Source of the DNA: a bacterium
GTDB lineage: Bacteria > Bacillota > Sulfobacillia > UBA995
Length of the DNA stretch: 64,000 nucleotides
Reading direction: 5' to 3'
Assembly (NCBI GenBank): GCA_031082145.1
Contig: JAVHLP010000001.1
Location: forward strand, 124,001-188,000
The notes beneath the pieces are model-generated. The model worked only from the letters and a program-made list of their open reading frames with translations. It made no database searches and was not told the origin of the DNA. The stretch's first letter is position 1. Each line of letters begins with the position of its first letter. Positions 2,781-37,187 of this stretch are shown here, piece after piece. A program made the position numbers and the translations under genes.

Positions 2781-3245
2781 CTAGCCGGCGGCCACCTCGG
2801 CCACCAGGTCGACCTCAACCGGTGCGCCAAGGGGCAGTTCGGCCACTCCCACCGCCGCCCGGGCGTGCCGGCCACGGTCGCCAAACACCTCCAGCAGCAG
2901 CTCGGAAGCGCCGTTAACCACTTGTGGCTGCCCGGTGAAGCCAGCGGCGCTGGCGACAAACCCGGTCACCTTCACCATCCGCACCACGCGGTCGAGGTCA
3001 CCCACCTGGGCCTTCAGGGCCGCCAGGCAGTTCAACGCACAGGTGCGGGCAGCCTGGCGGCCTTGTTCCACGGATATCTCGGCTCCCAGTTTCCCCTCGG
3101 CGATGAGCCGGCCCGCCACCACCGGTAGCTGGCCAGAGACAAAGACGTGGCAGCCGCTGTGCACGGCCGGCACGTAGGCGGCGAGCGGGGGCGCCACCGC
3201 CGGCAGTTCCAGACCCATGACTCTGAGCTTCTCCTCCGGTCTCAC
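2781..3245 (-). CDS. RidA/YjgF/UK114-family protein
   Basis: 154 residues from a GTG at 3245 with AGGAGA 6 bases upstream; the open frame continues far upstream but looks non-coding there (Pro/Thr/Arg-rich). The sequence fits the longer YjgF-like subfamily: VHSGCHVFVSGQLPVV, then a GRQAARTCALNCLAALKA helix, and LPLGAPVEVDLVAEV at the end. RidA proteins hydrolyse reactive enamine/imine intermediates made by PLP enzymes and so protect other PLP enzymes. Here the exact substrate is unknown, and this subfamily lacks the clear Arg of classic RidA in the place where I would expect it, so deaminase activity is not assured. Confidence 0.8.
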   Translation of the reverse strand: MRPEEKLRVMGLELPAVAPPLAAYVPAVHSGCHVFVSGQLPVVAGRLIAEGKLGAEISVEQGRQAARTCALNCLAALKAQVGDLDRVVRMVKVTGFVASAAGFTGQPQVVNGASELLLEVFGDRGRHARAAVGVAELPLGAPVEVDLVAEVAAG

Positions 3246-3777
3246 ATCAGGTCTCCTCTCGTGATCGCCTGACTCCCTTATACTCCCGTGCCTTACCGGT
3301 TTTCCTGCGTCATGGGTCATCGGGTCTAAAAAACACACCCCGGGGCAGACTGATCCCGGGTCTGTGGCGGCCGAGCGCAGACGGGTCCGGGCTTCCTTAG
3401 GGTGTCCGTCCCCGTCGGGCAAAGGTTGCCGTGGGTTGCGGGTCGGGTCACACGGTGGGCGCCCTGGTGTTGTGGGGTCGTCCAGCGTCCCTGTCACCCC
3501 GGGATCCGCGTCAGCCGGAGTCGAAGATGGCGGCCGGTTCGCAACGGGTCCATGCCGGTCGGGACCGGCGGGCTCGGGCAGGATCGACCCTCGTCGGGCT
3601 AAGATCGCCGTCGTTGCGGCAGTGGTCTGGCTCGGCCCGGAGGCCGGGCCGGGCTGCACAAGGAGCGCCGGCGGTTGAGTCAAGGTCTCGGCGGGCGCCG
3701 CAGGGGTCGGCCGCGGCCGCAAGGCGCCGCTGGCTCCACAGGTGCTCGCCGGGGCCGGGTCGAAGGTCGCCACAGGC
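3246..3777. other. Gene-less GC-rich stretch between the polymerase and ridA genes
   Basis: About 530 bases without a convincing gene. Open frames exist on both strands but translate to Pro/Ala/Arg/Thr-rich sequence without any recognisable motif, as expected by chance at this base composition. The only clear element is a terminator-like hairpin with six T residues on the minus strand near 3328-3361. The 400 bases upstream of it could be a long 3' untranslated region or a structured RNA; I recognise no RNA family. Confidence 0.6.
3328..3361 (-). terminator. Probable intrinsic terminator
   Basis: Read on the minus strand: a CCCGGG arm, about ten bases of loop, a CCCCGGGG arm, then GTG and six T residues. 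It would end transcripts coming from the ku/ligase/polymerase operon or from an RNA encoded in the gene-less stretch, and separate them from ridA. Confidence 0.6.
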
Positions 3778-4662
3778 CTACTCTATCCCCAATGCCCGCA
3801 GGGCATTGCCCACGTCCTGGGGATCCTCCAGTACCGGCCGGAAGAGATCGCCCACCCGGGACAGGCGTTCCCCGAGTGACTCCAGGTTCAGGTCCCCCGG
3901 CTTCAGGCGGGGTAGTTCATCCCAGGCGACCGGGGCCGAGACCGGGGCCCCCGGCAGGGGCCGGAGGCAGTAGGGAGCGGCCAGGGTTTTCCCCATGGCG
4001 TTCTGCAGGTGGTCAATATACACGCCCCGCCGCCGCGCTACGACCCGCTCCCGGGTGGTACGCCCCGGACAGGCCTCGTGGATGATATCGGCTACCCCGG
4101 CAACCAGACGGGCGATCGTTGAGTAGCTGGGCCCGCGGCAGAGCGGCAGGTAGATGTGAATGCCGGTGGCTCCCGATGTCTTCGGGTAAGCGCGCAGGCC
4201 CAGTTGGCCCAGGATGGTCCTGACCATGAAGGCAACCTCCACCGACTCGGTGAAGCCGGCCGGGGGGCTGGGGTCAAGGTCGAAGACGGCGAAGTCGGGG
4301 AAAGCGGGGGCGTCAGACCGGGAGAGCCAGGGGTGGATCTCGATTACCCCCCACTGGGCAAGCCAGACGAGGGTGGCAGGGCTGTCGGCAAGGCAGTAGT
4401 TGATGGTCCGCTCACCATGCCGGAAGGGTCCCCGCCGGATCCACGCCGGCGCACTCGGAGGGATGTTCTTCTGGTAGAAGCGCTTGCCGTGAATCCCATC
4501 GGGGTACCGGGTGAGCGAGAGGTACCGGTCCCGCAGATGAGGCAGCAGGTGGGGCGCCACTTCCTGGTAGTAGGCCACCAGTCGGCCCTTGGTGTACCCG
4601 TCCTGGGGCCAGAAAGGCTTGGCCAGGTTGGTCAGCTTGAGCGCGACGGGATCAGAGGTCAA
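3778..4662 (-). CDS. ligD-pol: LigD-type polymerase/primase domain protein (NHEJ)
   Basis: 294 residues from a TTG start at 4662 that overlaps the ligase stop codon (TTGA). It is the stand-alone polymerase domain of LigD: LTNLAKPFWPQDGYTKGRL at the start, then YLSLTRYPDGIHGKRFYQKN, the metal-binding DLDPSP motif, KTSGATGIHIYLPL, and the late VYIDHLQNAMGKTLAAPY segment. In bacterial end joining this domain adds nucleotides, often ribonucleotides, to fill gaps at broken ends brought together by Ku. It is the last gene of the gerW-ku-ligase-polymerase run. A longer frame with an upstream ATG exists inside the ligase gene, but the family start fits the TTG. Confidence 0.9.
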   Translation of the reverse strand: MTSDPVALKLTNLAKPFWPQDGYTKGRLVAYYQEVAPHLLPHLRDRYLSLTRYPDGIHGKRFYQKNIPPSAPAWIRRGPFRHGERTINYCLADSPATLVWLAQWGVIEIHPWLSRSDAPAFPDFAVFDLDPSPPAGFTESVEVAFMVRTILGQLGLRAYPKTSGATGIHIYLPLCRGPSYSTIARLVAGVADIIHEACPGRTTRERVVARRRGVYIDHLQNAMGKTLAAPYCLRPLPGAPVSAPVAWDELPRLKPGDLNLESLGERLSRVGDLFRPVLEDPQDVGNALRALGIE

Positions 4663-5540
4663 CAGCCGCCCACCAACCCCCGGTAGACCGGTTGTCGCAG
4701 CAAGCCCTCGGCCGTCAGTTCGGTGTACTCCACCCGACAACGAAGGCCCGGCTCGACCCAGCGGACCGGTCCCGGCACCCGACCGGAGTCGGCCAGCGGG
4801 GAGTCGGCCCGCAGCCGCAGGCGTCGCACCAGGTCCTCCCCTTCCGCCCCGGAATACCCGGTGCCGACCCTTCCGATGTAGCTCAGGCCATCACCGCCGG
4901 CGACGGCCAGCACCAGCGATCGTGGGTAGCGGGGATGGATCCCAGTGTAACCGACAATGGTGGCCTCCAGCACCTTCCGGTGGCGAACCTTCAGCCAGTA
5001 GCGGGAGCGTTCGCCCGGCAGATAGGGGCTTGCCACCTCCTTGGCGACGATTCCCTCCAGGCCCCGATCGGTGACCGCCCGGTAAAGGGCCAGGCCCTGG
5101 CCCACCACGTGTTCGGAGAAAACCAGGCTCGTCCCGCATGCGGGTACTACCTCCCGCAGGGCCTCCCTCCGGGCCTCCAGCGACTCCGCCATCAGATCCC
5201 GCCCGTCACGGTGCAAGAGATCGAATACCACGTAGACGACCGGCCCCTGGCGGTCCTGCAGGGCACCGAAGTCCGGCCGGGCTCCCCGCATGGCCACCAA
5301 CTCGCCGTCCAGGATCGCCTCCCTCGCTCTCACCCAGCCGGGGAGGGGCGCCAGTTCAGGGTAGAAGGAGGTGAGATCGCGGAGGTTCCGGCTCTGTAAC
5401 CGCATGACTCCGTTCTCGACAAAGGCCAGGCAACGGTAGCCATCCCACTTGACCTCAAACCAGTGCCGGGGCGAGTCGAAGGCTCGCTCGCTTGTCCGGG
5501 CCAGCATGGGCCGCACCAGCCGGCCGAGCACCCCGACCAC
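4659..5540 (-). CDS. ligD-lig: ATP-dependent DNA ligase (LigD ligase domain, NHEJ)
   Basis: 293 residues from a GTG, 3 bases after the ku stop. The nucleotidyltransferase motif I is FEVKWDGYRCLAF, where the Lys takes the AMP. Further motifs are LDGELVAM (III), VFDLLHRDG (IIIa), EGIVAKEV (IV) and YWLKVRHRK (V). The OB-fold domain follows (EATIVGYTGIHP to the end). It seals double-strand breaks with Ku. In many bacteria ligase and polymerase are fused in LigD; here they are separate adjacent genes, and there is no 3'-phosphoesterase domain in this window. Confidence 0.93.
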   Translation of the reverse strand: MVGVLGRLVRPMLARTSERAFDSPRHWFEVKWDGYRCLAFVENGVMRLQSRNLRDLTSFYPELAPLPGWVRAREAILDGELVAMRGARPDFGALQDRQGPVVYVVFDLLHRDGRDLMAESLEARREALREVVPACGTSLVFSEHVVGQGLALYRAVTDRGLEGIVAKEVASPYLPGERSRYWLKVRHRKVLEATIVGYTGIHPRYPRSLVLAVAGGDGLSYIGRVGTGYSGAEGEDLVRRLRLRADSPLADSGRVPGPVRWVEPGLRCRVEYTELTAEGLLRQPVYRGLVGGC

Positions 5541-5543
5541 GGC

Positions 5544-6347
5544 TCAGTCCTCCGCCCCCAGCGGGGCGCCGTCGCCATCGCCCTGGGTCATGTCGACGCT
5601 CGCTCGCAGGGCCTCCAGGAGGTCCACCACTTCGGCAGTGGCGGGCTCGCGGTATTCGAAGACTTGCCTCCCTTCCACCTTGGCTAGCACCAGTTCCTGG
5701 AGGGCTTCCCGGCGGCGGTCGAGGTACCGGCCGGGTGTGAAAGGGTGGGTCAGGTTGTCCACAAGAGTGAGGGCCATCTCCAGTTCGGCCGGCTTCAGTT
5801 CAGGGATCCCCAGAGGGCCTTCCAGCCCGGCGGCTGACCGGACCTCGTCCGGCCAGAACATGGTGGACAGGGCAAGGACGTCGCCGTAGCCGCGAAGGGC
5901 CGCCAGGGTCTCCTTGTCCCGGATGGCCACCCGGGCCACGGCGACCCGGTCACGCTCCCGCATCACCTGTCGGAGGAGATGGTAGGCCTTGTGACCCCCG
6001 TCGGCCGGTTCCAGGAAGTAATTCTTCTCGTAGTAGACAGGGTCGATCTCGGCCAGCCGCACGAAGTCAAGGATCTCCACCGTCCGGCGCGAGAACCCGG
6101 GCAAGGCGGCCAGGTCGTCGTCCCCGATCAGCACGAAACGGTCCCGCTCGTACTCGTAGCCGGATACCAGGTCTTCGCCGGCGACCTCGGTCTCGCAGTT
6201 GGGACACCATTTCCGGTAGCGGATAGGCGTACGGCAGCGCCCGTGGAGCCATCGAAAACGGAGAGCGCGCCGGGCGGTCGCCGCGTAGAGGCGCACCGGG
6301 ATGTGCACCAGGCCGAAGCTGATGGCGCCCTTCCACAGGGGCCGCAA
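5544..6347 (-). CDS. ku: Ku DNA end-binding protein (NHEJ)
   Basis: 267 residues from a TTG start 5 bases after the gerW stop. The opening MRPLWKGAISFGLVHIPVRL is almost diagnostic for bacterial Ku. A CPNCETEV zinc-like pair, GYEYERDRFVLI and the YYEKNYFLEP segment of the beta-barrel follow, then the LVDNLTHPFTPGRYLDRRREAL helix of the dimer arm. Ku forms a homodimeric ring on DNA ends and recruits the ligase and polymerase encoded next. Its position directly behind gerW, under a forespore-type promoter, suggests expression in the developing spore, as known for ku/ligD of Bacillus subtilis. Confidence 0.95.
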   Translation of the reverse strand: MRPLWKGAISFGLVHIPVRLYAATARRALRFRWLHGRCRTPIRYRKWCPNCETEVAGEDLVSGYEYERDRFVLIGDDDLAALPGFSRRTVEILDFVRLAEIDPVYYEKNYFLEPADGGHKAYHLLRQVMRERDRVAVARVAIRDKETLAALRGYGDVLALSTMFWPDEVRSAAGLEGPLGIPELKPAELEMALTLVDNLTHPFTPGRYLDRRREALQELVLAKVEGRQVFEYREPATAEVVDLLEALRASVDMTQGDGDGAPLGAED

Positions 6348-6352
6348 TCAGG

Positions 6353-6835
6353 TCAGCTCCCCGGGGTGGGGGTGGGCCTGCGGCCAACCGTTCGCCGGGG
6401 AGGAGCGGCCGGTACGGCCGCCTGGTACGCCTGGCCGTCACCGCGGACCAGGCCCGCCACCTGATCCAGCACTTGCGGCGCCAGGTCGATGAGGCGGTCG
6501 ATGATGGCCCTCCCATCCACGGGGAGGAGCCGCACCGTACCTTGTCCCACTACCAGGAAGCCTATAGGCTGGATGCTCACGCCGGCCCCGCTGCCGCCAC
6601 CAAAAGGCAGGGTCGCCTGGCCACCCGTGTCGGCTTGCCCCTGACGCTTGCCGTTGCGATCCGACTCGTACTCGGTCCCCCCGGCGGCGAAGCCGAAGCT
6701 CACCCGGGAGATGGGGACGATCACGTTGCCATCCGGCGTCTCAACGGCATCGCCGACGATGGTGTTGACATCCACCATCTCCTTGATGGCTTCCATGGCC
6801 GTCTTCATCAAGCCCTGGATGGGATGGTCGCTCAT
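6353..6835 (-). CDS. gerW: GerW-family sporulation/germination protein (YtfJ)
   Basis: 160 residues, ATG start. The N-terminal part matches the YtfJ/GerW family: an amphipathic MKTAMEAIKEMVDVNTIVG helix, DGNVIVPISRVSFGFAAGG, a glycine-rich FGGGSGAGVSIQPIGFLVV and then VRLLPVD. In B. subtilis GerW is made in the forespore and is needed for a normal germinant response. The Ala/Pro/Arg-rich C-terminus is probably disordered. A sigma-F/G-type promoter lies about 30 bases upstream, inside the end of the DUF2953 gene, and the ku gene follows after 5 bases. Confidence 0.88.
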   Translation of the reverse strand: MSDHPIQGLMKTAMEAIKEMVDVNTIVGDAVETPDGNVIVPISRVSFGFAAGGTEYESDRNGKRQGQADTGGQATLPFGGGSGAGVSIQPIGFLVVGQGTVRLLPVDGRAIIDRLIDLAPQVLDQVAGLVRGDGQAYQAAVPAAPPRRTVGRRPTPTPGS

Positions 6836-7449
6836 ATCCCGACTCCTTCCTGCCCGCTCTCCCGCCTAATATTGCTCCCGCCGGGCCGGGCTATGCGGCG
6901 CCAGATGAGCGGGAGCACCCGCCAGGCAAGCCGGAAGCCGAACCCGATCAGCCGGGCCACCCGGAGAGCGACAGCAGCCCTGAAATCGACCTCAAGCACG
7001 CTACGACCGTATTCCGGCCGTAGACTTAGCCGCGGCCGGATTCCTGTCCAGGGGGCCACCAGCCCGAGACCCGCCCAGCACCAGCCCACGAGCAGCGCGG
7101 TGGAGGCGGCGTCGCCGGTGCCGACCCGGGCGGACAAGCTCGCCTCGGTGATCCGGGTACCTCGTAGCATCCACCGCAGCAGGGGAAGTTGGGCCCGAAG
7201 AAGCCCCAGCCACTCGCCAAGGGGGATTTCGGAGAAGCCGTCGGCTATCCGGCCGGGGTCGGTGAGAGCGACGCTGAGCCGCTGGAACACCCGCGGTCCC
7301 AGTTCGCGCCGGAAGGAGATGCCCAGAGCAGACACGGTCAGTATCCCCGGCCCGCCCTCGGGAAGGCGGAAGCTGAAGCGGACCGGAAGCCAACTCCAGG
7401 CCACGACCGAGGCCAGGGCCAAGCCCGCGGCCCCAAGCCACCATGCCAT
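6832..7449 (-). CDS. DUF2953 domain membrane protein (YtfI-like)
   Basis: 205 residues, ATG start; the stop overlaps the gerW start by four bases. It begins with a hydrophobic segment (residues 3-20), followed by a DUF2953-type body with LSLRPEYGRSVLEVDFRAAV and a hydrophobic C-terminal stretch GFRLAWRVLPLIWRRI. The pairing of DUF2953 with YtfJ/GerW is conserved in spore formers, which supports a sporulation-associated role, although no biochemical function is known. It follows scpB after 23 bases. Confidence 0.8.
   Translation of the reverse strand: MAWWLGAAGLALASVVAWSWLPVRFSFRLPEGGPGILTVSALGISFRRELGPRVFQRLSVALTDPGRIADGFSEIPLGEWLGLLRAQLPLLRWMLRGTRITEASLSARVGTGDAASTALLVGWCWAGLGLVAPWTGIRPRLSLRPEYGRSVLEVDFRAAVALRVARLIGFGFRLAWRVLPLIWRRIARPGGSNIRRESGQEGVGI
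6867..6896 (-). promoter_or_regulatory. Forespore (sigma-F/sigma-G) type promoter for gerW-ku-ligase-polymerase
   Basis: Minus strand: -35 GCATA at 6892-6896, 15-base spacer, -10 AGCAATATTA at 6867-6876. This fits GYATA and nine of ten positions of GGNRANAHTW. It lies inside the 3' end of the DUF2953 gene and gives a leader of about 25 bases before the gerW ATG. Matched by eye against the known consensus; no score was computed. Confidence 0.6.
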
Positions 7450-7472: not shown

Positions 7473-8027
7473 CTAGCCTTCCCGCTCCTCCGGTGAATCA
7501 TGCGGGGCAGGGGCCAAGGGGGGCAGCTCTGCCAGCGACCGGAGGCCGAAGTGACGCAAGAAGCCGGGCGTGGTCGCGTAAAGGATGGGCCGGCCCACGG
7601 TCTCGACCCGGCCCACCTCCTGGATCAACTCCCGCTCGACCAGGACTGCGAGCACCTTCTCGCAGTTGACTCCCCGGACCATCTCAACCTGGGCCCGGGT
7701 GATGGGCTGGCGGTAAGCCACCACGGCCAGGGCCTCCAGGGCGGCGGGGGAGATGCCGACGGGGGCCTCGGCCGGGCTCAAGGCGCGCACCAGGGGGGCC
7801 AACTCGGGACGGGTGGCGAGGCGGAACCCCCCCGCCACCTCCTGGAGTTCGAACCCCCGCCCCTCCCTGCGGTATTCGGCGGCGAGCTCACCCAGAAGGG
7901 CCAGGACCTCGCCTTCGTCGACCTCGAGGACACGGGCAGCGGTCGCCGCCGGGAGAGGCTCCGGGGAGACCAGCAGGAACGCCTCCAGGGCCGCCCGCAG
8001 GCCTAGCCCTCCCGGTGCTTCTTTCAC
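7473..8027 (-). CDS. scpB: Segregation and condensation protein B
   Basis: 184 residues from a GTG at 8027 that overlaps the scpA stop (GTGA). Two winged-helix domains are seen: LRAALEAFLLVSPEPLPAA to GFRLATRPELAPLV, then SPAALEALAVVAYRQPITR, VRGVNCEKVLAVLVERELI and GRPILYATTPGFLRHFGL. ScpB binds ScpA and the SMC ATPase in the condensin complex that compacts and segregates the chromosome. Length and order next to scpA are those of most Firmicutes. Confidence 0.93.
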   Translation of the reverse strand: MKEAPGGLGLRAALEAFLLVSPEPLPAATAARVLEVDEGEVLALLGELAAEYRREGRGFELQEVAGGFRLATRPELAPLVRALSPAEAPVGISPAALEALAVVAYRQPITRAQVEMVRGVNCEKVLAVLVERELIQEVGRVETVGRPILYATTPGFLRHFGLRSLAELPPLAPAPHDSPEEREG

Positions 8028-8755
8028 CTCTGAGCCGCCTTCCGCCGGATCTGTATGGAACCGTAGGTGCGATCTTGACCCACGATGACCCAACCCAACC
8101 GCATCAACTCCAGCAGGGCCAGGAAGGTCACGATGATCTCCCGCCGCCCGGCGCCCCGCCGGAACAGGGCTCGGAAGGAGACCGCCCGGCCGGGGGCCCG
8201 GCGCAGGGCACGGGCAATGGCCCGCATCTGATCCCGGACCGTGAACTCATCCCGCTCGATCTCCCGCGGCTCCTCGGGAGGCTTCTCCTTCAGCAACTCC
8301 TCAAGGGCCGACAGAAGGTCGCCGGGCCCGATCCCCTCCAAGGTCAATGCGGGCCGGGCAGCCACGACAGTGGGTGTCCGGACGAAGGAGTTCCCCGCCT
8401 CGCATTCGCGTTCCTTCAGGAGCTCGGCCGCCCGGCGGAAGAGCCGGTATTCGAGTAGCCGACGCACCAGTTCGGCCCTCGGGTCCGGCTCTGCCCCGTC
8501 CTCGCCTGCGGTTTCGCCCGGCCCCCGGGGAAGCAGCAGGCGGGCCTTGATCTCCATGAGGGTCGCAGCCATCAACAGGAAGTCTGCCGCCCGATCCAGG
8601 TCCAGCCGGTCAAGCTCCCTCAGGTACTCAAGGTACTGCCACGTGATCCGGGCAATGGGGATGTCGTGGATGTCCACGGCTTCCTCCTGGATGAGGTGCA
8701 GCAAGAGGTCCAGGGGACCTTCGAAGACTTCCAGGCGCACGCGGTAGGCGTCCAC
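8024..8755 (-). CDS. scpA: Segregation and condensation protein A
   Basis: 243 residues from a GTG start. The kleisin opening LEVFEGPLDLLLHLIQEE is very typical, followed by VDIHDIPIARITWQYLEYL, FLLMAATLMEIKARLLLP, and a C-terminal winged helix with REIIVTFLALLELMRLGWV. It bridges the SMC heads and binds ScpB, encoded by the overlapping next gene. Confidence 0.94.
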   Translation of the reverse strand: MDAYRVRLEVFEGPLDLLLHLIQEEAVDIHDIPIARITWQYLEYLRELDRLDLDRAADFLLMAATLMEIKARLLLPRGPGETAGEDGAEPDPRAELVRRLLEYRLFRRAAELLKERECEAGNSFVRTPTVVAARPALTLEGIGPGDLLSALEELLKEKPPEEPREIERDEFTVRDQMRAIARALRRAPGRAVSFRALFRRGAGRREIIVTFLALLELMRLGWVIVGQDRTYGSIQIRRKAAQR

Positions 8756-8764
8756 GGCGATCCT

Positions 8765-9412
8765 CTAGAACGGCCGGATTAGCCGGGACAGGCCGTCCGC
8801 CAGCCGCAAGATGGCCTCCATCACCGTTCCCGAGAGGGCGAAGACCACACCGGCGCCAACGCCACTGAGAAGCACGATCAGGAGCAAGAAGGGGCCTATT
8901 TGCTCCAGACGATCCAGCAGGTGCGCCTGCCTCCCGGGAAGGAGCCCCGCCAGGACCTTGGACCCGTCCAAGGGAGGGATGGGGATCAGGTTGAAGACGG
9001 CCAAGACCACGTTGAGCTGGAAGGTGACCATGATCAGGCGGGGGAGGTAGGGCACGCCGGCCAAGAGGCCCCAGCGGAGGCCAAAGACGATCAACAGGGC
9101 AAACAGGAAGGCCAGCAGGAGGTTGGCGACGGGCCCGGCCAGGGCGGTCCAGAGCAGGCCCCGCCGGGGATCCACGCGGTAGAAGTAGGGGTTGGTGGGC
9201 ACCGGCTTGGCCCAGCCGAAGCCGTAGAATACGATCAAGAGGGTCCCGATAGGGTCCAGGTGGGCCCAGGGTTCCAGGGTCAGTCGGCCCATGCGGCGGG
9301 GCGTGGGGTCACCGAGGCGGTTGGCCATCCACGCGTGCGCGAACTCGTGGAAAGTGAGGGCCAGCAAGAGCGCAGGAAGCCGGAGGGCCATGGTCACGAT
9401 GTCAAACCGCAT
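8765..9412 (-). CDS. Site-2 protease family (M50) membrane metalloprotease
   Basis: 215 residues, ATG start with GGGAGGA upstream. The zinc-binding HEFAHA motif sits in the first membrane helix (LLLALTFHEFAHAWMANRL). The second conserved region is the FNLIPIPPLDGSKVLAGLLP motif, whose Asp completes the zinc site. About five membrane segments. It belongs to the compact M50 group related to B. subtilis YwhC, lacking PDZ domains; substrates are unknown. It is the first gene of the M50-scpA-scpB-DUF2953-gerW run and has its own promoter. Confidence 0.87.
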   Translation of the reverse strand: MRFDIVTMALRLPALLLALTFHEFAHAWMANRLGDPTPRRMGRLTLEPWAHLDPIGTLLIVFYGFGWAKPVPTNPYFYRVDPRRGLLWTALAGPVANLLLAFLFALLIVFGLRWGLLAGVPYLPRLIMVTFQLNVVLAVFNLIPIPPLDGSKVLAGLLPGRQAHLLDRLEQIGPFLLLIVLLSGVGAGVVFALSGTVMEAILRLADGLSRLIRPF

Positions 9413-9446: not shown

Positions 9447-9500
9447 TAGGCTGAGAGGCGATGCTTCGGGGCGCACGCCGGCAGGCGGAGCCAGGGACCA

Positions 9501-9840
9501 CTATGTCGGCGGAGCCCCCAGTTCCTCGAGCACCTCTCCCTGCATCGTGTCCGGCAGTCCCGCGGCCTGCATCGCCCGCACCATAAAGGCCAGATCGCAG
9601 TCCCTGGCAGGCAAAAGGGTCAGCAGCGGCCGGTAACGGTCGACCCTGCCACGGTAGAGCTCGGTGATCAGCCGCAGTTCAAGTCCCACGGTCGGTACCG
9701 AGTCAGGACCGTAAGGGAGAAGGACGAACCGCTCCGATGAACCGCGGCCGAAGGTCTCGATGGTGTCAAGCCCGGTGCGATACCGCCTGGAGCAACGCAT
9801 CGGCGTAGGAGGAGCTAAACACACGTGTGCGTCGGGCATC
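9501..9840 (-). pseudogene. Orphan 3' gene fragment beyond the IS remnant
   Basis: About 100 codons in frame with the tail of the degraded transposase, ending at a stop at 9501. The translated sequence (from RYRTGLDTIETFG to LEELGAPPT) has ordinary globular composition, e.g. LRLITELYRGRVDRYRPLL and LPARDCDLAFMV, but I do not recognise the family. It has no start of its own and directly abuts the transposase remnant, so it is probably the C-terminal remainder of a gene cut by the insertion. Confidence 0.4.
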
Positions 9841-9844
9841 TGAG

Positions 9845-10745
9845 CGGGGCGTGCGAGAAAGCGAGGAGGTTCGGGGGCCTGAAGGGACCTCAAGAGTTGA
9901 GCCTGTTGCTTCGTCGTCTCAGTACGTTGCAGGACCCAGCCGTCCTTCGACCCGAACTCGCCCACATGCAGCCTCTGCAGGACCCGGTGCAGTTCGTCCC
10001 AGGTCAACCCCGTGCGTACCGCGGCGATCCGGATGAGCAAGAGCGCCAGCCATCAGACGATCGCGTGAGACCGTATCCGGTCCTCCAGCCGGTGGTCGAT
10101 CAGTCGTAGGCAAAGAGTGGTCTTGAGCGTTCGGAACGCGTCCTCCACCTCGTACAACTGCCTGAACCCAAGAGCCCCGTCCTCCGGTGACAGCGAGTCG
10201 TCCGAGGTGCTGAGCAGGGACTTGCCCGTCAAGCTTCTCCTCTTCCCTGATCTTCGCCTTGTTCAGCCGGGGCTGGCCGTTGCGGTCCGCACGTACATAG
10301 CGGCCCAACACCGGGTGGGCGACCAGAGCACACAAGCCGTGCTGTGAGGAGCACCCTTGAGGTCCCCGATCCGCCTGAGCTCTGCCTTCACCTGAGCCAG
10401 AGTAGACTCCCGGTCCCTACTGTCCCTCTCCGCTTCCCGGGGGTTGCGGACCAGGACGAAGCGCTGGCGTCTCTCCCCGTCGCCAACCACGATCTCCTTG
10501 ACCTCGAGGTTGTCCCGCACCGTGTTGAACCGACCGGGTCGGGACAGAGCATCGTTCGTATCCTGGGCTCCGGAACGCAACCGCTCCCCGACAATGTAGT
10601 GACCCCAGGACCGTTGGAGCGTCCTGAGGTTCTCCTCCGAGGAGAAGCCACGGTCCACCACGATGACCACCCGGCCCAGCCGCCAGCCGCTCAAGTCCCG
10701 TTTGACCTCCTCGTTCACACTGGCGTGACTTTCGTTACCCATCCC
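9845..10745 (-). mobile_element. Degraded IS1634-type transposase (truncated, frameshifted)
   Basis: Three frames carry consecutive parts of one transposase. First VVIVVDRGFSSEENLRTL to HYIVGERLRSG and VVGDGERRQRFVLVRNP; then, shifted, RYVRADRNGQPRLNKAK and REEEKLDG; then, shifted again, RQLYEVEDAFRTLKTTL, HRLEDRIRSHAIV, an in-frame TGA, and WLALLLIRIAAVRTGLTW to PEPPRFL. The order and motifs are those of IS1634-family DDE transposases. The N-terminal third is missing: similarity starts abruptly near 10745, at the end of the DegT-type gene. The element is dead and marks the left edge of the accessory island. Confidence 0.8.
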
Positions 10746-11829
10746 GGTCAGATCGGCCGAGACGGTCGCGCAGCAACGAAGCAAGTGCATCTATCTGTCG
10801 GGGCGAGACACCCTGGTGCACGGGCAAGGCCACCACCCGGTCGGCCAACCAAGCTGCTTCCGGGAACTCGACTCTCGAAGCGCTGTCAGGCAGGCTCCTC
10901 CACATCCTCGCCGCATACGAGCCTGCCCTTCTCAGCACGGTGACAGCAAGGTCTGGATCATCGACGACCGCGGGAAAGACAAGGGGTACTACTCCCTCCG
11001 GGAGTGATCCGTGAAGCGGTCTGCAGGGACCCGAACTCCCAAGCAGTCCGAGCCAGGCGGCGAAGTTGGCGCGCCGCTGGTCGGCCACCCATTGGAAGTC
11101 GATGCGAGGGAGCAACGCCCTTGTGAGAGGCGACATGGCGCTGTGAAAGGGCCGGAATGAGCTCAATCGCGGCTCCCACTTGATTGGCCCAACACCAAGC
11201 CGACTCTGAACCGCTTGCACCAACCTAGCCGTAGTGCCTCCGAGCTGCCAGCAAACGTCGTAACGGTAAGCATGAGAGCTCAAGGTTAACCCGGGCCGGT
11301 TAAGGACCAGGGCTGCCCCGTCAGGAACGCCCAGCGTCTTCCGGAAGCTGAACACAACCAAGTCCCCGACGACTCCAACCGGGGTGTTGTCCAGGGTCGA
11401 GAGGAAGGCATGGGCGCAGTTACGGATAAGCCAGATACCCCTCTCAGTGCAGAATTGGCCGAACTCCTCCTGGGAAGGCTGAGGAAACCCGAAGTAATCA
11501 ACCAACACCAGCGCCTTAGTACTGGCATCGGCTTTCCGGATTGCGTCCTCGATCAAGGCCGTCCCTCGGCTCGAGACCTCGAAGAAGCGAACCGTTATGT
11601 TCCTGGCACGGAACGGCGTGGCTACTACTGGGCACACGAAGGCGGGCAGCAGGACGGTATCCCCAGGCCCCAGTTCAAGCGCGGCAACTGCCCCGTCCAA
11701 GGCGTACCTGGCATGCGAGTAGAACCGCAACTTGGATGGACACTCGTCGAGGGGATAGGGCATTGACCGGGTGCGCCGCACCCGGTCACTCACTAACCTA
11801 TCGATGGGGCAGTACCTGGGTATGTACAC
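10735..11829 (-). CDS. DegT/DnrJ/EryC1-type PLP aminotransferase, possibly clipped at its C-terminus
   Basis: 364 residues from a GTG at 11829 with a G-rich Shine-Dalgarno; an ATG at 11763 (giving MPYPLDECPSKL) is the other possible start and directly follows a perfect palindrome. The fold-type-I body is visible: HARYALDGAVAALELGPGD, LLPAFVCPVVATPFRA, VLVDYFGFPQPS, RNCAHAFLSTLDNTPVG and VVFSFRKTLGVPDGAALV, where the Lys is the likely PLP Schiff-base residue. Related enzymes transaminate sugar nucleotides or other ketones. The reading frame ends at a TAA lying at the junction with the transposase remnant, so the natural C-terminus may be lost. Last gene of the island operon. Confidence 0.72.
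   Translation of the reverse strand: MYIPRYCPIDRLVSDRVRRTRSMPYPLDECPSKLRFYSHARYALDGAVAALELGPGDTVLLPAFVCPVVATPFRARNITVRFFEVSSRGTALIEDAIRKADASTKALVLVDYFGFPQPSQEEFGQFCTERGIWLIRNCAHAFLSTLDNTPVGVVGDLVVFSFRKTLGVPDGAALVLNRPGLTLSSHAYRYDVCWQLGGTTARLVQAVQSRLGVGPIKWEPRLSSFRPFHSAMSPLTRALLPRIDFQWVADQRRANFAAWLGLLGSSGPCRPLHGSLPEGVVPLVFPAVVDDPDLAVTVLRRAGSYAARMWRSLPDSASRVEFPEAAWLADRVVALPVHQGVSPRQIDALASLLRDRLGRSDRDG
11764..11788. repeat. Perfect 25-bp palindrome (12-bp arms, 1-bp centre)
   Basis: The arms are TGACCGGGTGCG and its exact reverse complement, separated by a single base. It abuts the ATG at 11763 of the DegT-type gene on the minus strand. As RNA it would be a very stable hairpin without a T-tract; as DNA it could be a dimeric regulator operator or a mobile-element target. 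Confidence 0.75.
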
Positions 11830-31092: not shown

Positions 31093-32634
31093 TCATGGCC
31101 CGGGGGATGACGACCCCGACTCGTCATCGCCGTCGAAGGGCCACTCCAGCTCGGGATCGGTCGCCGGGCCCCGTCCCGCCATCCGGTCCGGGTCCCTGAC
31201 CCCCAGGAAGCGCGGCCGCAACCTGGCCTGGGGGACGGGCGTGCGTATCGCTATGCTGACCAGCGAAGGGAAGTGGAGGGGCCAGAGCGGCCACATGTAG
31301 GGCACGCCGAAAGAGCGCATGCGGGTCAGGGCGATAGCCAGTATGACGACGGCTACCGCCAGCCCGGGCAGTCTGAGGCCGGCCACCACCACCAGGAGGA
31401 TCAGCCGTGTGAGCCGCACCGCCTGGGCGAACTCAAGACTGGGGGTGGCAAAGGTCCCGATGGCGGCCACCGCGACGTAGAGAATGGCTTCGGCGGTGAA
31501 CAGGCCCACCCGGATGGCTACTTCACCCAGCAGAATGGCGCCTATGAACCCGAGCGAGGTGGCCAGGGCATTGGGGGTGTGGATGAGCGCCAGGCGGACC
31601 AGATCGATCCCCACTTCCCCGAGGATGAACTGCAAGGGCAGGGGGACCAGGGCCGGGTCGCGCGGTCCCAGGAAGTCTAGCAGCCCGCCGAAAAGCTGCT
31701 TGTCCAGGACCAGGGCCACCCACAGGGGCGGCCCAATCCAGGACAGGCCGATGGCCAGGAACCGCACCCAGCGCAGGTAGACGCCGACGGCCGGATCCTG
31801 CCGGTAATCCTCGGCGTGCTGCATGTGGTGGAAGATGGTCACCGGCAGCAGCATGAGCCCTGGCGAGGTATCAACGGCGACCGCCACGTGCCCTTCCAGC
31901 AGGTGCACGGCCACGACATCGGGCCGTTCGGTATAGCGGACCACCGGGAACGGGTTCCACCAGGCCCGCTTTCCGGTGATGAACTCCTCCAGGGACTTCT
32001 CACCCATGGGCAAGCCGTCCACGTCCACGGCCTGGATGCGCTCGGCGATCATGCTGACCAATCCGGGATTGGCGATGTCCCGTATGTAGAGCAGGGCCAC
32101 ATCGGTCCGGGACCGGCGGCCCACGGTGTACAGGCGAACACGCAACTGGGGGTCGCGTAGCCGGCGGCGGACCAGCGCGGTGTTGAACACGATGGTCTCC
32201 GCGAACCCGTCGCGGCTGCCACGGACGACCCGTTCCAGTTCGGGCTCTTCCAGGGCCCGCACCGGGTACTCGCGGGCATCGATGGCCAGAGCCTTGTCCT
32301 CTCCGTCGAGGAGAAAGACCAGGGGCCCGGACAGGATCTGCTCGATGGCGCCGTCGAGGTCCTTGACCGCCGTCACCTCGATGAAGGGAAGCCAGCGGCG
32401 ATTCAGCACCTCCAACGGGGACGGGGTGAGGTCGGAACGCTCAAGCGGAGCGAGAGTGCGCAGGATCTGGGTGACCACGTCTTCCTTGACCAGGCCATCG
32501 ATGAAGACAAGGGCGGCCCCACGCCCGGCTACCTGGAGGCGGCGGATGATGACGTCGAAGCTCTCTTCCGCCCCCAGGACCTCGCCCAGTATTCCAAGGT
32601 TGTCCTCCAGCTTGGCAGCGAGGGGTCGCGACAC
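31093..32634 (-). CDS. spoVAF: Stage V sporulation protein AF (GerA-family membrane protein)
   Basis: 513 residues, GTG start sharing its base with the TAG of the previous gene. The GerA-type soluble N-domain spans about 280 residues (GRGAALVFIDGLVKEDV, YIRDIANPGLVSMIAERI, RPDVVAVHLLEGHVAVAVD), followed by a membrane domain with PPLWVALVL, LIHTPNALATSLGFIGAILL and SLEFAQAVRLTRLILL. SpoVAF belongs to the spoVA region of several spore formers and associates with germinant receptors and the dipicolinate channel. The acidic C-terminus (DDESGSSSPGP) is probably disordered. Confidence 0.9.
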   Translation of the reverse strand: MSRPLAAKLEDNLGILGEVLGAEESFDVIIRRLQVAGRGAALVFIDGLVKEDVVTQILRTLAPLERSDLTPSPLEVLNRRWLPFIEVTAVKDLDGAIEQILSGPLVFLLDGEDKALAIDAREYPVRALEEPELERVVRGSRDGFAETIVFNTALVRRRLRDPQLRVRLYTVGRRSRTDVALLYIRDIANPGLVSMIAERIQAVDVDGLPMGEKSLEEFITGKRAWWNPFPVVRYTERPDVVAVHLLEGHVAVAVDTSPGLMLLPVTIFHHMQHAEDYRQDPAVGVYLRWVRFLAIGLSWIGPPLWVALVLDKQLFGGLLDFLGPRDPALVPLPLQFILGEVGIDLVRLALIHTPNALATSLGFIGAILLGEVAIRVGLFTAEAILYVAVAAIGTFATPSLEFAQAVRLTRLILLVVVAGLRLPGLAVAVVILAIALTRMRSFGVPYMWPLWPLHFPSLVSIAIRTPVPQARLRPRFLGVRDPDRMAGRGPATDPELEWPFDGDDESGSSSPGP

Positions 32635-33293
32635 TACCTATCCCCTTTCTCCGGTGACGCCCGGCAGGATCCCCTCCCCGTCCGCCGGCTCAGGTCCTGC
32701 CCCGGTTCAGGCGGTGACACGGGGGGATGATATCCGTTGCGGCTGAGGATCTCCCTGATCGCCCGGGCGGTCACGGGGGCGCCCCGTTCGGGATCGTCCC
32801 GTCCGTCCATCTTGCCGGGATCGCCGGCGCCCACCACGGGACCACTGTACGCCCGGGCCACGTCCACCGTGTCGCCGCGCTGCCGCCCGCGCCCGGGCAG
32901 GGCCCGTCCCGCCTTGTCCACGGGTCCTACCACTACCCGCCCTTCGCGGGTGACCGACGCGTCCACCCTCACTCCCCGGACATGGGGGGTGTTGGCGGCT
33001 ACCGCCACTACTCCCAGTACCTCCGCGTCGGGGTGTACCAGGAGATCGCGGAGGGCTTGCTCGCCCTGATCGAGGCCAGGCTCACCGCAGTCGTCCACCA
33101 GCACCAGGACCGGGCCGGGGGGCGCGGAGCGGGCCAGGTTCACAATCTCATCGCCGCTCAGCGGGGTCGGTCTTCCGGCCGACCGGGAGATGCAGCGCAG
33201 GCCGAGGTCGGCGGCAATCCGCTCCGCAACTCGCAAGGCAGTTGCGTCTCCATCGGTGATGACGATCAGCTGGACTTCTTTCTTGGCAGCCAC
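32634..33293 (-). CDS. spoVAEA: Stage V sporulation protein AEa
   Basis: 219 residues, GTG start. The N-terminal 130 residues fit the soluble SpoVAEa family: VQLIVITDGDATALRVAERI, LRCISRSAGRPTPLSG, PVLVLVDDCGEPGLDQGE and LGVVAVAANTPHVRGV. The C-terminal 80 residues are rich in Arg, Gly and Pro and look unstructured; the family is otherwise about 200 residues. It lies 3 bases after spoVAEb and abuts spoVAF. In the forespore the SpoVA proteins bring calcium dipicolinate into the spore. Confidence 0.87.
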   Translation of the reverse strand: MAAKKEVQLIVITDGDATALRVAERIAADLGLRCISRSAGRPTPLSGDEIVNLARSAPPGPVLVLVDDCGEPGLDQGEQALRDLLVHPDAEVLGVVAVAANTPHVRGVRVDASVTREGRVVVGPVDKAGRALPGRGRQRGDTVDVARAYSGPVVGAGDPGKMDGRDDPERGAPVTARAIREILSRNGYHPPVSPPEPGQDLSRRTGRGSCRASPEKGDR

Positions 33294-33296
33294 CGG

Positions 33297-33647
33297 TTAC
33301 CCCCGGGGGTTAAAGAGGACGGCCATCAGGAGACCGGACACCACTGCCACCGTCAGCCCCAGGGCGACAGCGGTGAGCCCCCCGGTCAGAAGGCCCGTCG
33401 GCCCCACCTTGCCGAACTCCCGGATGATCCCCTGAACCAGGGCATGGCCGAAGGCCGGCAGGGGTACGATGGCCCCGGCGCCGCCCACCCGGATCAAGGG
33501 GTCATACAGGCCTAACCCGCTGGCAACGGCCCCCAGGCTGACGAAAAGGACCATGACGTGGGCGGGGGTGATCCGGCTGAGATCCAGCACCAGTTGTGCG
33601 GCCACGCACAGGAGGCCTCCCACCACGAACGCCAGCAGGAACTCCAT
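33297..33647 (-). CDS. spoVAEB: Stage V sporulation protein AEb (membrane)
   Basis: 116 residues, ATG start. Four hydrophobic segments: FLLAFVVGGLLCVAAQLVL, HVMVLFVSLGAVASGLGLY, the conserved GGAGAIVPLPAFGHALVQGI, and AVALGLTVAVVSGLLMAVLF. This is the short membrane subunit that with SpoVAC and SpoVAD forms the minimal dipicolinate channel module. Confidence 0.92.
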   Translation of the reverse strand: MEFLLAFVVGGLLCVAAQLVLDLSRITPAHVMVLFVSLGAVASGLGLYDPLIRVGGAGAIVPLPAFGHALVQGIIREFGKVGPTGLLTGGLTAVALGLTVAVVSGLLMAVLFNPRG

Positions 33648-33661
33648 GGTTGACGACCTCC

Positions 33662-34699
33662 CTACCCCGGTGCGTCCTGGGTCTCCAGGGCCACCGCGTG
33701 GGCGATGCCGGGTATGCTCTCCCCTTGCTGGTAGCTCGTGGGGCTGAAGAGGGCCCCGGTACAGACCAGCAGCAGGCGGCGGTAACGCCCACCCAACATC
33801 CCCTGCATCAGGTAGCCACTGAAAACGGCGGCAGAGCAGCCGCAGCCGCTGGCCCCGGACTCAACACCCTGGCTCGGTTCGTATATTGCCGAGCCGCAGT
33901 CGAAGAGACGGCCGGCCACATCCAGGCCCTTGCGTTCAAGCAAGTCGGCGGTGATCTGCTTGCCGACGTCGGCCAGGTCACCGGTCACGATCAGGTCGTA
34001 GTCTTCCGGAGTCCGGCCCGTATCCTCGAAGTGACGCAGAATGGTGTCCGCCGCGGCCGGCGCCATGGCGGCCCCCAGGTTGAGGGGGTCCTTCAGCCCC
34101 GGGTCGGTCACCCGGCCGATGGTGGCCATGGTGATCGCCGGACCATCACCTTGAGCGGCCATCAGGACCGCGCCCGCCCCGGTCACGGTCCACTGGGCGC
34201 TAGGCGGAGGCTGGTTGCCGAACTCGGTGGGGAAACGGAACTGGCGCTCGGCGGTGCAGTGATGGCTGGAGACGCCGACCAGCAGGCTGGTAGCGTACCC
34301 GCCATCGATCATCATCGACCCCACAGCCATGCCCTCGGCAAAAGTAGAGCAGGCCCCGAAAATGCCGAGGAACGGGAGTTTGAGCTCGCGGGCCACAAAG
34401 CTGGAGGAGGTGATCTGGTTCAGGAGATCGCCGGCAACCAGGTAGTCAACATCCTTCAGGGAGTGACCGGCTTTGCGCAGGGCCAGCCGGCAGGCCTCGG
34501 TCAGCATCCGGGCCTCGGCCCGTTCCCAACTCTTCTCGCCCAGGAGATCGTCCTCCTTGACGACGTCGAAGTAGTCTCCCAGCGGTCCTTGCCCTTCCTT
34601 GGGGCCCACCACCGCCGCCGCCGCCACCACGGCGGGGGTGAGCTCGAAGCTGATCGTCTGCCGTCCCCGGCGGCGAGTTCTGGTGATGGTTGTGGCCAT
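33662..34699 (-). CDS. spoVAD: Stage V sporulation protein AD
   Basis: 345 residues, ATG start. Thiolase/KAS III-like fold without the normal condensation chemistry; SpoVAD binds dipicolinate on the inner membrane surface. Visible family parts: EKSWERAEARMLTEACRLAL, YLVAGDLLNQITSSSFVARE, LGIFGACSTFAEGMAVGS with the Cys of the thiolase-like site, GYATSLLVGVSSHHCTAERQFRFP, and SGASGCGCSAAVFSGYLM near the end. Operon order spoVAC-AD-AEb-AEa-AF is kept. Confidence 0.95.
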   Translation of the reverse strand: MATTITRTRRRGRQTISFELTPAVVAAAAVVGPKEGQGPLGDYFDVVKEDDLLGEKSWERAEARMLTEACRLALRKAGHSLKDVDYLVAGDLLNQITSSSFVARELKLPFLGIFGACSTFAEGMAVGSMMIDGGYATSLLVGVSSHHCTAERQFRFPTEFGNQPPPSAQWTVTGAGAVLMAAQGDGPAITMATIGRVTDPGLKDPLNLGAAMAPAAADTILRHFEDTGRTPEDYDLIVTGDLADVGKQITADLLERKGLDVAGRLFDCGSAIYEPSQGVESGASGCGCSAAVFSGYLMQGMLGGRYRRLLLVCTGALFSPTSYQQGESIPGIAHAVALETQDAPG

Positions 34700-34711
34700 G
34701 GACAGAGCCTC

Positions 34712-35158
34712 CTACCCGATCGCCCCGAGGAGCCACAGGAAGGCTCCCACCAGGACGGACACCAGCACGGCGTAGACAATGACGGGACCCGCCACCGTGA
34801 ACATGCGGGCTCCAACTCCGAGCACAAAGCCTTCCCGCTTGAACTCCATGGCGGGAGCCACGATGGCGTTGGCGAATCCGGTGATCGGCAGAAAGGCACC
34901 CATCCCTCCCCGCCGGCCGATCCGGTCGTAGACGCCGAGACCGGTCAGCACTGCCCCCAGGAAGATCATGGTCGCCGCCGTGACCGCACTCGCCTCGGTG
35001 AGAGGCAGGCCCCGCCCTCGGAAGAAGCCCAGGAAGAACTGGCCGATGGTACAGATCGCCCCCCCTACCAGGAACGCACGAACGGTGTTCAGGAGGATTG
35101 GCCGGGGAGGGGTCCGCCGCCGGATAAGATCTTGGGTCTCCCGGTCAGCCGGGACCAT
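34712..35158 (-). CDS. spoVAC: Stage V sporulation protein AC (membrane)
   Basis: 148 residues, ATG start overlapping the stop of the dodecin gene (TAATG). Hydrophobic membrane protein: LLNTVRAFLVGGAICTIGQF, EASAVTAATMIFLGAVLTGL, PITGFANAIVAPAMEFKREG, then a last membrane stretch VIVYAVLVSVLVGAFLWLL. SpoVAC of B. subtilis behaves as a mechanosensitive dipicolinate channel in germination. spoVAA and spoVAB are absent here, as is common in Clostridia. Confidence 0.93.
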   Translation of the reverse strand: MVPADRETQDLIRRRTPPRPILLNTVRAFLVGGAICTIGQFFLGFFRGRGLPLTEASAVTAATMIFLGAVLTGLGVYDRIGRRGGMGAFLPITGFANAIVAPAMEFKREGFVLGVGARMFTVAGPVIVYAVLVSVLVGAFLWLLGAIG

Positions 35159-35376
35159 TAGACCCGGCGACGGTCGGGATCCACGGTGAAGGCCACCTTC
35201 ACATTGGCCTTGTACTGGACTATCCGGCCCTGCTCAACGTTGGCGGTCCAGTTGCATACCTCGACCCCGGTGATGTTATCCACCGTCCGGGCTGCTTCCG
35301 TCACCGCCCGGCTGGCCGCCTCCTGCCAGCTCTCGGGGGACTCGCCGACGAGTTCCAAGACCTTGACCACGCTCAT
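35158..35376 (-). CDS. Dodecin family flavin-binding protein
   Basis: 72 residues from the ATG at 35376, with GGAGGTG 10 bases upstream. It matches dodecins end to end: VVKVLELVGESPESWQEA, then a helix AASRAVTEAARTVDNI, VCNWTANVEQGRIVQYKA with the flavin-stacking Trp, and VKVAFTVD. Dodecins assemble to hollow dodecamers that store flavins. Its stop overlaps the spoVAC start (TAATG), so it is translated together with the spoVA genes, a location that implies production in the forespore. Known spoVA operons of B. subtilis contain no dodecin. Confidence 0.9.
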   Translation of the reverse strand: MSVVKVLELVGESPESWQEAASRAVTEAARTVDNITGVEVCNWTANVEQGRIVQYKANVKVAFTVDPDRRRV

Positions 35377-35566
35377 CCCGCATCGACACCTCCGGCAACC
35401 TGATCGGAGAGCCTCCCCAGACCGAAATGGTCTCGCCCTGGACGCGGCCCTCGACATAGACGGGGTACACTTCGCCGCCCAGTTCGTCCCCCGCGCTCGT
35501 CCCCCGGCCCTGTTCCACAAGCATGGTCAGCCGCCGCAGGCGCTCCCGCTTCTCATTCCACGCCAA
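35276..35566 (-). CDS. Small unknown protein between sigF and the dodecin gene
   Basis: 96 residues from a TTG at 35566 with GGAGGG 7 bases upstream. The first 62 residues look like a real small protein: EKRERLRRLTMLVEQGRG followed by a beta-rich EVYPVYVEGRVQGETISVWG and IRLPEV; the last 34 residues lie over the dodecin gene in another frame and are Arg/Gly-rich. I recognise no family. Its position just after a forespore-type promoter and before dodecin-spoVA suggests sporulation expression. The 101-base overlap with dodecin is unusual; the true stop could be earlier if a frameshift occurred. Confidence 0.5.
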   Translation of the reverse strand: MAWNEKRERLRRLTMLVEQGRGTSAGDELGGEVYPVYVEGRVQGETISVWGGSPIRLPEVSMRDERGQGLGTRRRVPRELAGGGQPGGDGSSPDGG

Positions 35567-35585
35567 GGGTGTCCCTCCGTGCCGC

Positions 35586-35614
35586 TATTGTGCCCGGAGG
35601 AGGTTGGCCTATGC
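35586..35614 (-). promoter_or_regulatory. Forespore (sigma-F/sigma-G) type promoter for the dodecin-spoVA genes
   Basis: Minus strand: -35 GCATA at 35610-35614, 14-base spacer, -10 GGGCACAATA at 35586-35595 (nine of ten to GGNRANAHTW). It lies in the short gap between the sigF stop and the small gene, giving a leader of about 13 bases plus the Shine-Dalgarno. Spacer is one base shorter than in the other three sites found here. Confidence 0.58.
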
Positions 35615-35630
35615 CACGGCCGAGGGAGGC

Positions 35631-36311
35631 TCAGGCCTCAAGCTGGCCGCGCATCAGGGCGAGGGCTTGCTTCTCGAGGCGGGAGACCTGGGCCTGGGAG
35701 ATGCCCAGCCGGGCGGCAACGGTGGCCTGGGTCAACTCGGCGAAGAAGCGGAGTTCGAGGATGAGCCGTTGTCGGGGCGGCAGTCGCCGGAGAGCCTGAC
35801 CCAGTGCGATGTGGTCCAGGACCTCGGCGTCCGACTCCCGGCCGGGGATGCGATCGAGGACCAGCCCCGCGGAGTCGTCGTCAGACAGAGGCTCGTAAAG
35901 GGATATGGGGGGAATCGAGGCCTCCATGGCGTCCACCAGTTCGTCGGCGGTCACCCCGGTGGCAACGGCAAGCTCCTCCAGGGTAGGCTCCCGGCCGAGG
36001 CGTGCCGTCAGACCCGTCCGGACCTGAGCGGCCCGGCCCGCAACCTCCTTGAGGCGGCGGCTCACCCGGAGGGGACCATGGTCGCGCAGATGTCGCCGTA
36101 TTTCACCCATCACCGTGGGCACGGCGAAGGTGCTGAACTGGGTGCCGAAAGCCGGATTGAAGCGGTCGGCTGCTTTCAGGAGGCCAATGCAGCCAACCTG
36201 GAAGAGATCGGCCGTGTCCTCGCCTCGCCCCCGGAAACGGTTGACGATGTCCCAGACCAGGCGGCCGTGTTCCTCAATAAGGCGTTGCCGCGCTTCGGGG
36301 TCGCCACCCAC
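35631..36311 (-). CDS. sigF: RNA polymerase sporulation sigma factor F
   Basis: 226 residues from a GTG with GGAGGGG upstream. Region 2: GRLVWDIVNRFRGRGEDTADLFQVGCIGLL and FGTQFSTFAVPTVMGEIRR (shown in parts of the same block). Region 3: GREPTLEELAVATG. Region 4 helix-turn-helix: LTQATVAARLGISQAQVSRLEK. Sigma-F starts gene expression in the forespore and is held by SpoIIAB until SpoIIAA frees it. The gene order dacF-spoIIAA-spoIIAB-sigF is the classical spoIIA locus. Confidence 0.95.
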   Translation of the reverse strand: MGGDPEARQRLIEEHGRLVWDIVNRFRGRGEDTADLFQVGCIGLLKAADRFNPAFGTQFSTFAVPTVMGEIRRHLRDHGPLRVSRRLKEVAGRAAQVRTGLTARLGREPTLEELAVATGVTADELVDAMEASIPPISLYEPLSDDDSAGLVLDRIPGRESDAEVLDHIALGQALRRLPPRQRLILELRFFAELTQATVAARLGISQAQVSRLEKQALALMRGQLEA

Positions 36312-36323
36312 CCCAACCCCTCC

Positions 36324-36782
36324 TCAAGCGCTGCTCGAGCCCTCTTCCCGCGGAACCGCCGCCGGCTGCTTGACCATGAAGACGCGGGTTCCCCCTGCCG
36401 GGCCGGGTCCCACTTCGAGCCGATCGGAGAACGCCTCCATGAACGAGAAGCCCAGGCCCATCCGTTCCGGGTCAGTGGTATAAGAAGCCTGGCGGGCCAG
36501 AGCGACGTCGGCGATGCCCTGGCCATCGTCGTCAACCGTCAACTCCAGCAAGCTCCCCGACAGGCGAGCGTTCACCCGGACCCATCCCCGGCGGCCGGGG
36601 TAAGCATGGACTACCGCGTTGGTCACCGCCTCAGAGACCGCCAGGCGGATCTCCTCCACGTCGCTGAGGGTGAACTCGGCCTGGGCGGCAAAGGTGGCCA
36701 CCGCGTTCCGTGCCACGCCCACATTGGCCGGTAGATTCAGGAACTCCAGCCGCATCATGTTGTCGGGCCGGTCCAGGTCCAC
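36324..36782 (-). CDS. spoIIAB: Anti-sigma F factor / serine kinase
   Basis: 152 residues from a GTG 3 bases after the spoIIAA stop (GGAG at about 9 bases). GHKL-type ATPase: the N-box VEEIRLAVSEAVTNAVVHAY, G1 box VDDDGQGIAD and G2 region ERMGLGFSFMEAFSD. SpoIIAB binds sigma-F and also phosphorylates SpoIIAA on serine. Slightly longer at the C-terminus than B. subtilis SpoIIAB. Confidence 0.95.
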   Translation of the reverse strand: MDLDRPDNMMRLEFLNLPANVGVARNAVATFAAQAEFTLSDVEEIRLAVSEAVTNAVVHAYPGRRGWVRVNARLSGSLLELTVDDDGQGIADVALARQASYTTDPERMGLGFSFMEAFSDRLEVGPGPAGGTRVFMVKQPAAVPREEGSSSA

Positions 36783-36785
36783 GAC

Positions 36786-37127
36786 TTATCGCTCCTTCAC
36801 ATAGGCCAGCGCGCGATCCAGAGACTCGTGCAGGGGGATGATGCCGGTGATCCCGGCTACTTCCAGTAGTGAGGCTACCCGCGGACTGGCCCCGTAGACG
36901 GCCATCCTGCCGGCCGAATCCAGGACTTGCCGGTACCGGCCCAGAATGGCGCCAAGGCCCGAACTGTCAACGAACTCAACCCCGGTCAGGTCCAGGATGA
37001 CAGATCGGCCAGTCCCCCCCCGGAGCAGGTTCTCGGCGGCCAAGCGCAACTCCTGGGCGCCCCTGATATCCAGGTCGCCCCGCAGGCGCAGGAGGAGCGT
37101 ATTACCCATTACTTCGTGACTGACCAC
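36786..37127 (-). CDS. spoIIAA: Anti-anti-sigma factor SpoIIAA
   Basis: 113 residues, GTG start. STAS domain: LLLRLRGDLDIRGAQELR, VILDLTGVEFVDSSGLG, where the second Ser of the DSSGLG motif is the residue phosphorylated by SpoIIAB, and MAVYGASPRVASLLEVAG. Dephosphorylated SpoIIAA displaces sigma-F from SpoIIAB in the forespore. Confidence 0.95.
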   Translation of the reverse strand: MVSHEVMGNTLLLRLRGDLDIRGAQELRLAAENLLRGGTGRSVILDLTGVEFVDSSGLGAILGRYRQVLDSAGRMAVYGASPRVASLLEVAGITGIIPLHESLDRALAYVKER

Positions 37128-37187
37128 TCCACCGCCTCCCCCCAGTGGGGAGAGGTTCGACCCGGTGGGATATTCTTCCTGCCGCTC

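Follow-up and report, generated by a model that had tools for sequence, protein, structure and literature searches.

Linkage of non-homologous end-joining genes to gerW behind a forespore-type promoter in a class of spore-forming Bacillota

Forespore end joining and the gerW cluster

In Bacillus subtilis, ku and ligD are expressed in the forespore under the control of sigG and SpoVT (PMC3656841), and the ykoV-ykoU gene pair has been described as a forespore system for non-homologous end joining (NHEJ) (Wang et al., 2006, as cited in PMC3656841). Expression of gerW (ytfJ) is also forespore-specific, in this case attributed to sigF, and strains of two Bacillus species deleted for the gene showed no germination phenotype (PMC4366231). 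The initial annotation of the locus described here gave the B. subtilis Ku and LigD proteins as made in the forespore under sigma-G, in agreement with this literature, and treated gerW as a germination gene, which the deletion phenotypes contradict.

The window (the whole stretch of 64,000 nucleotides that was analyzed) carries in its first 9.4 kb, on the minus strand, the gene order M50-scpA-scpB-ytfI(DUF2953)-gerW-ku-ligase-polymerase. The features of this cluster are:

8765-9412, minus strand: M50 (site-2) protease, with which the contiguous cluster begins (PF02163, 51 bits)
8024-8755, minus strand: scpA (PF02616, 121 bits), order kept in relatives
7473-8093, minus strand: scpB (PF04079, 177 bits), order kept in relatives
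6832-7449, minus strand: ytfI, DUF2953 protein and host of the promoter (PF11167, 27.5 bits, above cut-off), position kept in relatives
6867-6896, minus strand: forespore-type (sigF/sigG) promoter site in the 3' end of ytfI, conserved in relatives
6353-6835, minus strand: gerW/ytfJ, forespore protein (TIGR02874, 183 bits, cut-off 116; PF09579, 104 bits)
5544-6347, minus strand: ku, DNA-end-binding protein (TIGR02772, 287 bits, cut-off 150; PDB Ku, 1.5e-60)
4659-5540, minus strand: stand-alone LigD-type ATP-dependent DNA ligase (TIGR02779, 240 bits, cut-off 228; PDB 1vs0, 1.8e-39)
3778-4662, minus strand: stand-alone LigD-type primase-polymerase (TIGR02778, 238 bits, cut-off 215; PF21686, 278 bits; PDB 5dmu, 2.5e-50)

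The gerW product matches the GerW/YtfJ family profile above its curated cut-off, and the three genes behind it provide a bacterial-type Ku (single copy in the genome), a LigD-type ligase domain, and a LigD-type polymerase domain. The full-length LigD profile TIGR02776 is not reached, a single multidomain polypeptide being optional and split forms being known, and no LigD phosphoesterase domain (PF13298), which is optional for bacterial NHEJ and absent in B. subtilis, was found in the genome. The translations retain the K-WDG motif of the ligase and the FDLDP motif of the polymerase, so both enzymes look active. The polymerase reading frame is open to 4740, and its start is probably the TTG at 4662, which lies in a TTGA overlap with the ligase stop. 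That gerW, ku, ligase, and polymerase follow one another with gaps or overlaps of 3-5 bases, as first annotated, holds exactly: 5 nt separate gerW and ku, 3 nt separate ku and the ligase, and the ligase and polymerase overlap by 4 nt. ytfI and gerW also overlap by 4 nt (ATGA), and the feature reaches beyond the earlier limit of 6896, taking in ytfI and the contiguous genes up to the M50 gene (9412). We found nothing resembling a terminator from gerW to the polymerase gene.

Two neighboring stretches are of separate note: the M50 gene is separated from an aminotransferase-like reading frame by apparent broken-frame remains of a transposase, recognized by eye (9500-10790, minus strand), and about 540 GC-rich nucleotides between the polymerase gene and rid (3241-3777) show neither a clear gene nor an Rfam match.

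Like ykoV (ku) and ykoU (ligD) of B. subtilis, the locus pairs Ku with LigD-type polymerase and ligase and lacks the phosphoesterase domain, and it carries a forespore-type expression signal in a sporulating host. Unlike that pair, the ligase and polymerase are separate genes here, and instead of forming a private operon the set stands behind the gerW promoter in an scpAB-ytfI-gerW cluster. The ligase and polymerase share their catalytic domain families with mycobacterial LigD and with stand-alone NHEJ enzymes in the PDB (1vs0, 5dmu, and 6nhx), whereas the domains of those enzymes are fused, or separate in other contexts. We know of no association with spores for the mycobacterial or the stand-alone enzymes. 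The gerW gene resembles that of Bacillus (PMC4366231) in protein family and in having a sigF-type forespore promoter upstream, and gerW occurs together with ytfI across the phylum.

Linkage of gerW and ku across class and phylum

Our class sample consists of 61 genomes, that of the window and 60 class relatives, and 47 of them encode both Ku and YtfJ. The two genes lie on the same strand less than 5 kb apart in 42 of the 47, and gerW and ku are directly adjacent in 35, belonging to 26 families. The initial annotation, which had suggested looking for gerW-ku adjacency in related genomes and spoke of an arrangement "in this lineage," was right about the arrangement but understated its scope, since the linkage spans about 30 families of the class. 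As for the unlinked genomes, two (G031 and G057) have apparent contig breaks at the right place, and in three (G011, G044, and G055) Ku and YtfJ are apparently separate. The order scpA-scpB-ytfI-gerW-ku-lig-pol recurs in about 40 loci with a median gerW-ku gap of 30 nt, the M50 gene keeps its position in part of the class only, and in four families (f2, f4, f26, and f27) a D,D-carboxypeptidase gene (dac) stands between gerW and ku. Symbiobacterium, Thermaerobacter, and Sulfobacillus form one group in an engulfment-protein tree from the literature (PMC7924749).

Outside the class, Ku was found within 10 kb of YtfJ in none of 125 Bacillota genomes that have both genes, a sample in which the two share one contig in only 36 genomes and lie on different contigs in 89; in the 36 single-contig genomes the closest distance is 68 kb. 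Non-class gerW was seen near ku in none of the genomes examined, and the gene right after it encodes a D,D-carboxypeptidase in 8 of 20 non-class loci. Because dac follows gerW in these loci, the ancestral order may have been gerW-dac, with ku-lig-pol entering behind it. The class Ku genes do not form one clade in the Ku tree, whose weak backbone is compatible with a single origin. We found no description of the gerW-ku linkage or of the borrowed promoter in the open-access library searched; the arrangement and the borrowed promoter appear to be new, forespore NHEJ itself being already known.

Two departures from the common order were seen. A relative in the window's own family (G003, locus L123) lacks ku-lig-pol at this locus, where rid and rluB come immediately after gerW. 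In family f18 (loci L089, L120, and L126, the last cut at a contig end), sigG and scpAB-ku-lig-pol are kept and ytfI and gerW are lost; the clear promoter is lost as well, leaving only a weak N19 match near ku. The NHEJ set kept without gerW in this family shows that gerW is dispensable for it.

The linkage provides a testable clue to the function of GerW. If GerW worked together with the end-joining enzymes in the spore, for example as a spore-core protein with the chromosome or the NHEJ proteins as its target, and had been retained before ku across the class for this joint action, the absent germination phenotype of gerW mutants would be accounted for; we consider such a partnership distinctly improbable.

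A promoter nested in ytfI

The promoter-like GCATA site reported about 30 bases before gerW is real: it reads GCATA-N15-AGCAATATTA and occupies 6896-6867, with 31 nt from its end to the gerW ATG. In the form GCATA-N18-AATATTA, it agrees with the sigF/sigG pattern GHATR-N18-CATNNTA at 9 of the 10 positions, and with its upstream bases it also fits the sigF pattern. The forespore type of the annotated promoter stands, while an assignment to sigG is too specific, as sigF fits equally and the sequence of the site does not distinguish the two. We rejected judging the site from the window's sequence alone, where its score is at chance level: N18 sites scoring at least 9 number 4 in the 64-kb window, whereas chance alone would give about 3 (3.4 in shuffles).

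Conservation at the DNA level is observed in the relatives, the absence of a GCATA-type site from them having been named beforehand as evidence that would count against the forespore reading. In 32 of 49 class loci, the 200 nt upstream of gerW contain a site scoring at least 9, compared with 0.2 in shuffled sequence, and about a third of gerW loci have no such site. The consensus form in the class is GHATA-N18-CATNNTA, and the score effect has a sharp peak at spacing 18. Sites scoring at least 9 were not found before ku (0/48), lig (0/46), or pol (0/44), nor before scpA or scpB in the class loci, and the four found before ytfI are at loci where start calls are uncertain. The same promoter precedes gerW in 16 of 20 non-class loci, which makes it older than the class; since it occurs elsewhere in the phylum, the step specific to the class is the hooking of ku-lig-pol behind it.

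Within ytfI the ancestral site occupies the 3' end and keeps the frame of a conserved motif of the protein (DCIxxxxRxGHII), and the constraints of coding and promoter function therefore had to be separated. A site in this position could be just the DNA image of the ytfI motif or, as the chance-level score of the window's own site would allow, a chance match. The codons argue otherwise: in the homologous ytfI column all 29 of 29 isoleucine codons are ATA, where 3.1 would be expected (P about 2e-34, relatedness ignored); over these loci ATC dominates, and ATA accounts for about a tenth of the isoleucine codons. This test uses the aligned ytfI column and replaces a version on sites chosen by motif, which was biased. 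The old position has been lost in the window's family (G000, G001, and G003) and in families f15, f21, and f28, and each of these families has a fresh site upstream of gerW, at a distance of 30-65 nt; those of f15 and f28, like the sites of three non-class genomes, are out of frame or outside ytfI altogether. With such sites also lacking in front of the three repair genes and of scpA and scpB, an origin in the protein motif or in chance is scarcely credible.

The window's own site was considered as a representative of the ancestral ytfI column and rejected as such, the ytfI protein alignment placing it elsewhere, closer to gerW; it is this displacement that underlies our reading of turnover. 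Without promoter function, this replacement of one site by another is difficult to account for. The locus also documents a promoter inside coding sequence that can be traced across the phylum, with its turnover visible in four families.

Sporulation context and probable source of the ku transcript

We think it likely that a single operon ties end joining to sporulation across the class, with one forespore transcript serving gerW and the NHEJ genes. An ancient sigF/sigG-type promoter in the last codons of ytfI would start transcription just before gerW, and ku-ligase-polymerase would have been inserted behind gerW, or behind gerW-dac, in this class, such that a single forespore mRNA yields GerW and a whole minimal NHEJ machine. 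The repair enzymes would then probably be made together with GerW inside the developing spore and, once enclosed in it, would mend breaks in the dormant and the germinating spore, whose single chromosome leaves no template for recombination. This would parallel the rejoining of breaks by B. subtilis Ku and LigD, which act from their own sigG promoter. From the comparison of genomes we infer co-transcription, dependence on a forespore sigma factor, packing into spores, and a role of NHEJ there. The arrangement suggests that end joining and the forespore have been connected by a second construction besides that of B. subtilis, through a borrowed older forespore promoter, and that this construction has been kept across a deep class of high-GC spore formers.

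Six class genomes have no full sigG match, and both Ku and YtfJ are absent from all six; these lineages appear to have lost sigG. Ku is present in 50 of the other 55 class genomes (Fisher P 8e-6, without correction for relatedness); a few of these 55 are counted as sigG-positive from matches that are split or fragmentary. Ku is thus missing where the full sigG match is missing even though scpAB is a housekeeping pair, a pattern unexpected if ku-lig-pol were mainly part of a chromosome-maintenance operon (M50-scpA-scpB-...) of vegetative cells and owed their expression to read-through in growing cells, with the gerW promoter serving gerW and adding little to ku. Such read-through, with the M50 gene as a possible source, would fit the contiguity of scpAB-ytfI-gerW-ku, whose genes are joined by short gaps or overlaps without terminators, and the presence of scpAB directly before ku in f18, where gerW is absent. 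The lack of a terminator applies equally between the gerW promoter and ku. Moreover, where the gerW-ku gap exceeds 60 nt, a forespore-like site scoring at least 8 lies directly before ku in 6 of 15 class loci, as against 1 of 27 tight pairs. We therefore regard vegetative read-through as an unlikely main source of ku expression, though it may contribute some Ku as well.

The same ku-proximal sites in some wider-gap members bear on another reading, in which ku is driven by a promoter of its own and the inherited neighborhood behind gerW is a relic without present function. Non-class Ku genes are indeed enriched for sigG-like sites of their own (score at least 8 in 43 of 98, compared with 18 in shuffled sequence), which agrees with the control by sigG reported for B. 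subtilis (PMC3656841). In most class members, however, the gap of 0-50 nt is too short to hold an intergenic promoter for ku alone and the ku-proximal site is absent, which makes a mere relic very improbable.

Two marks of a forespore regulon are present in the host: the promoter is conserved in relatives, and the genome encodes both sigma factors. The sigG match reaches 497 bits; the sigF-like gene (35631-36311), behind spoIIAA-AB, scores 246 bits to TIGR02885, below the 321-bit cut-off of that profile. This gene belongs to a second forespore cluster in the window (31093-38354, minus strand), which comprises dacF-like, spoIIAA, spoIIAB, sigF-like, spoVAC, spoVAD, spoVAE, and GerXA/SpoVAF-like genes. 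The first gene of its spoVA part is dodecin-like (35158-35520, minus strand), an arrangement that is not known from B. subtilis. Directly before it, a GCATA-N17-CACAATA site at 35614-35586 precedes the spoVA cluster, and in the same genome GGATA-N17-CATTCTA stands 49 nt upstream of one SASP gene; both sites serve as internal calibrations of the forespore pattern.
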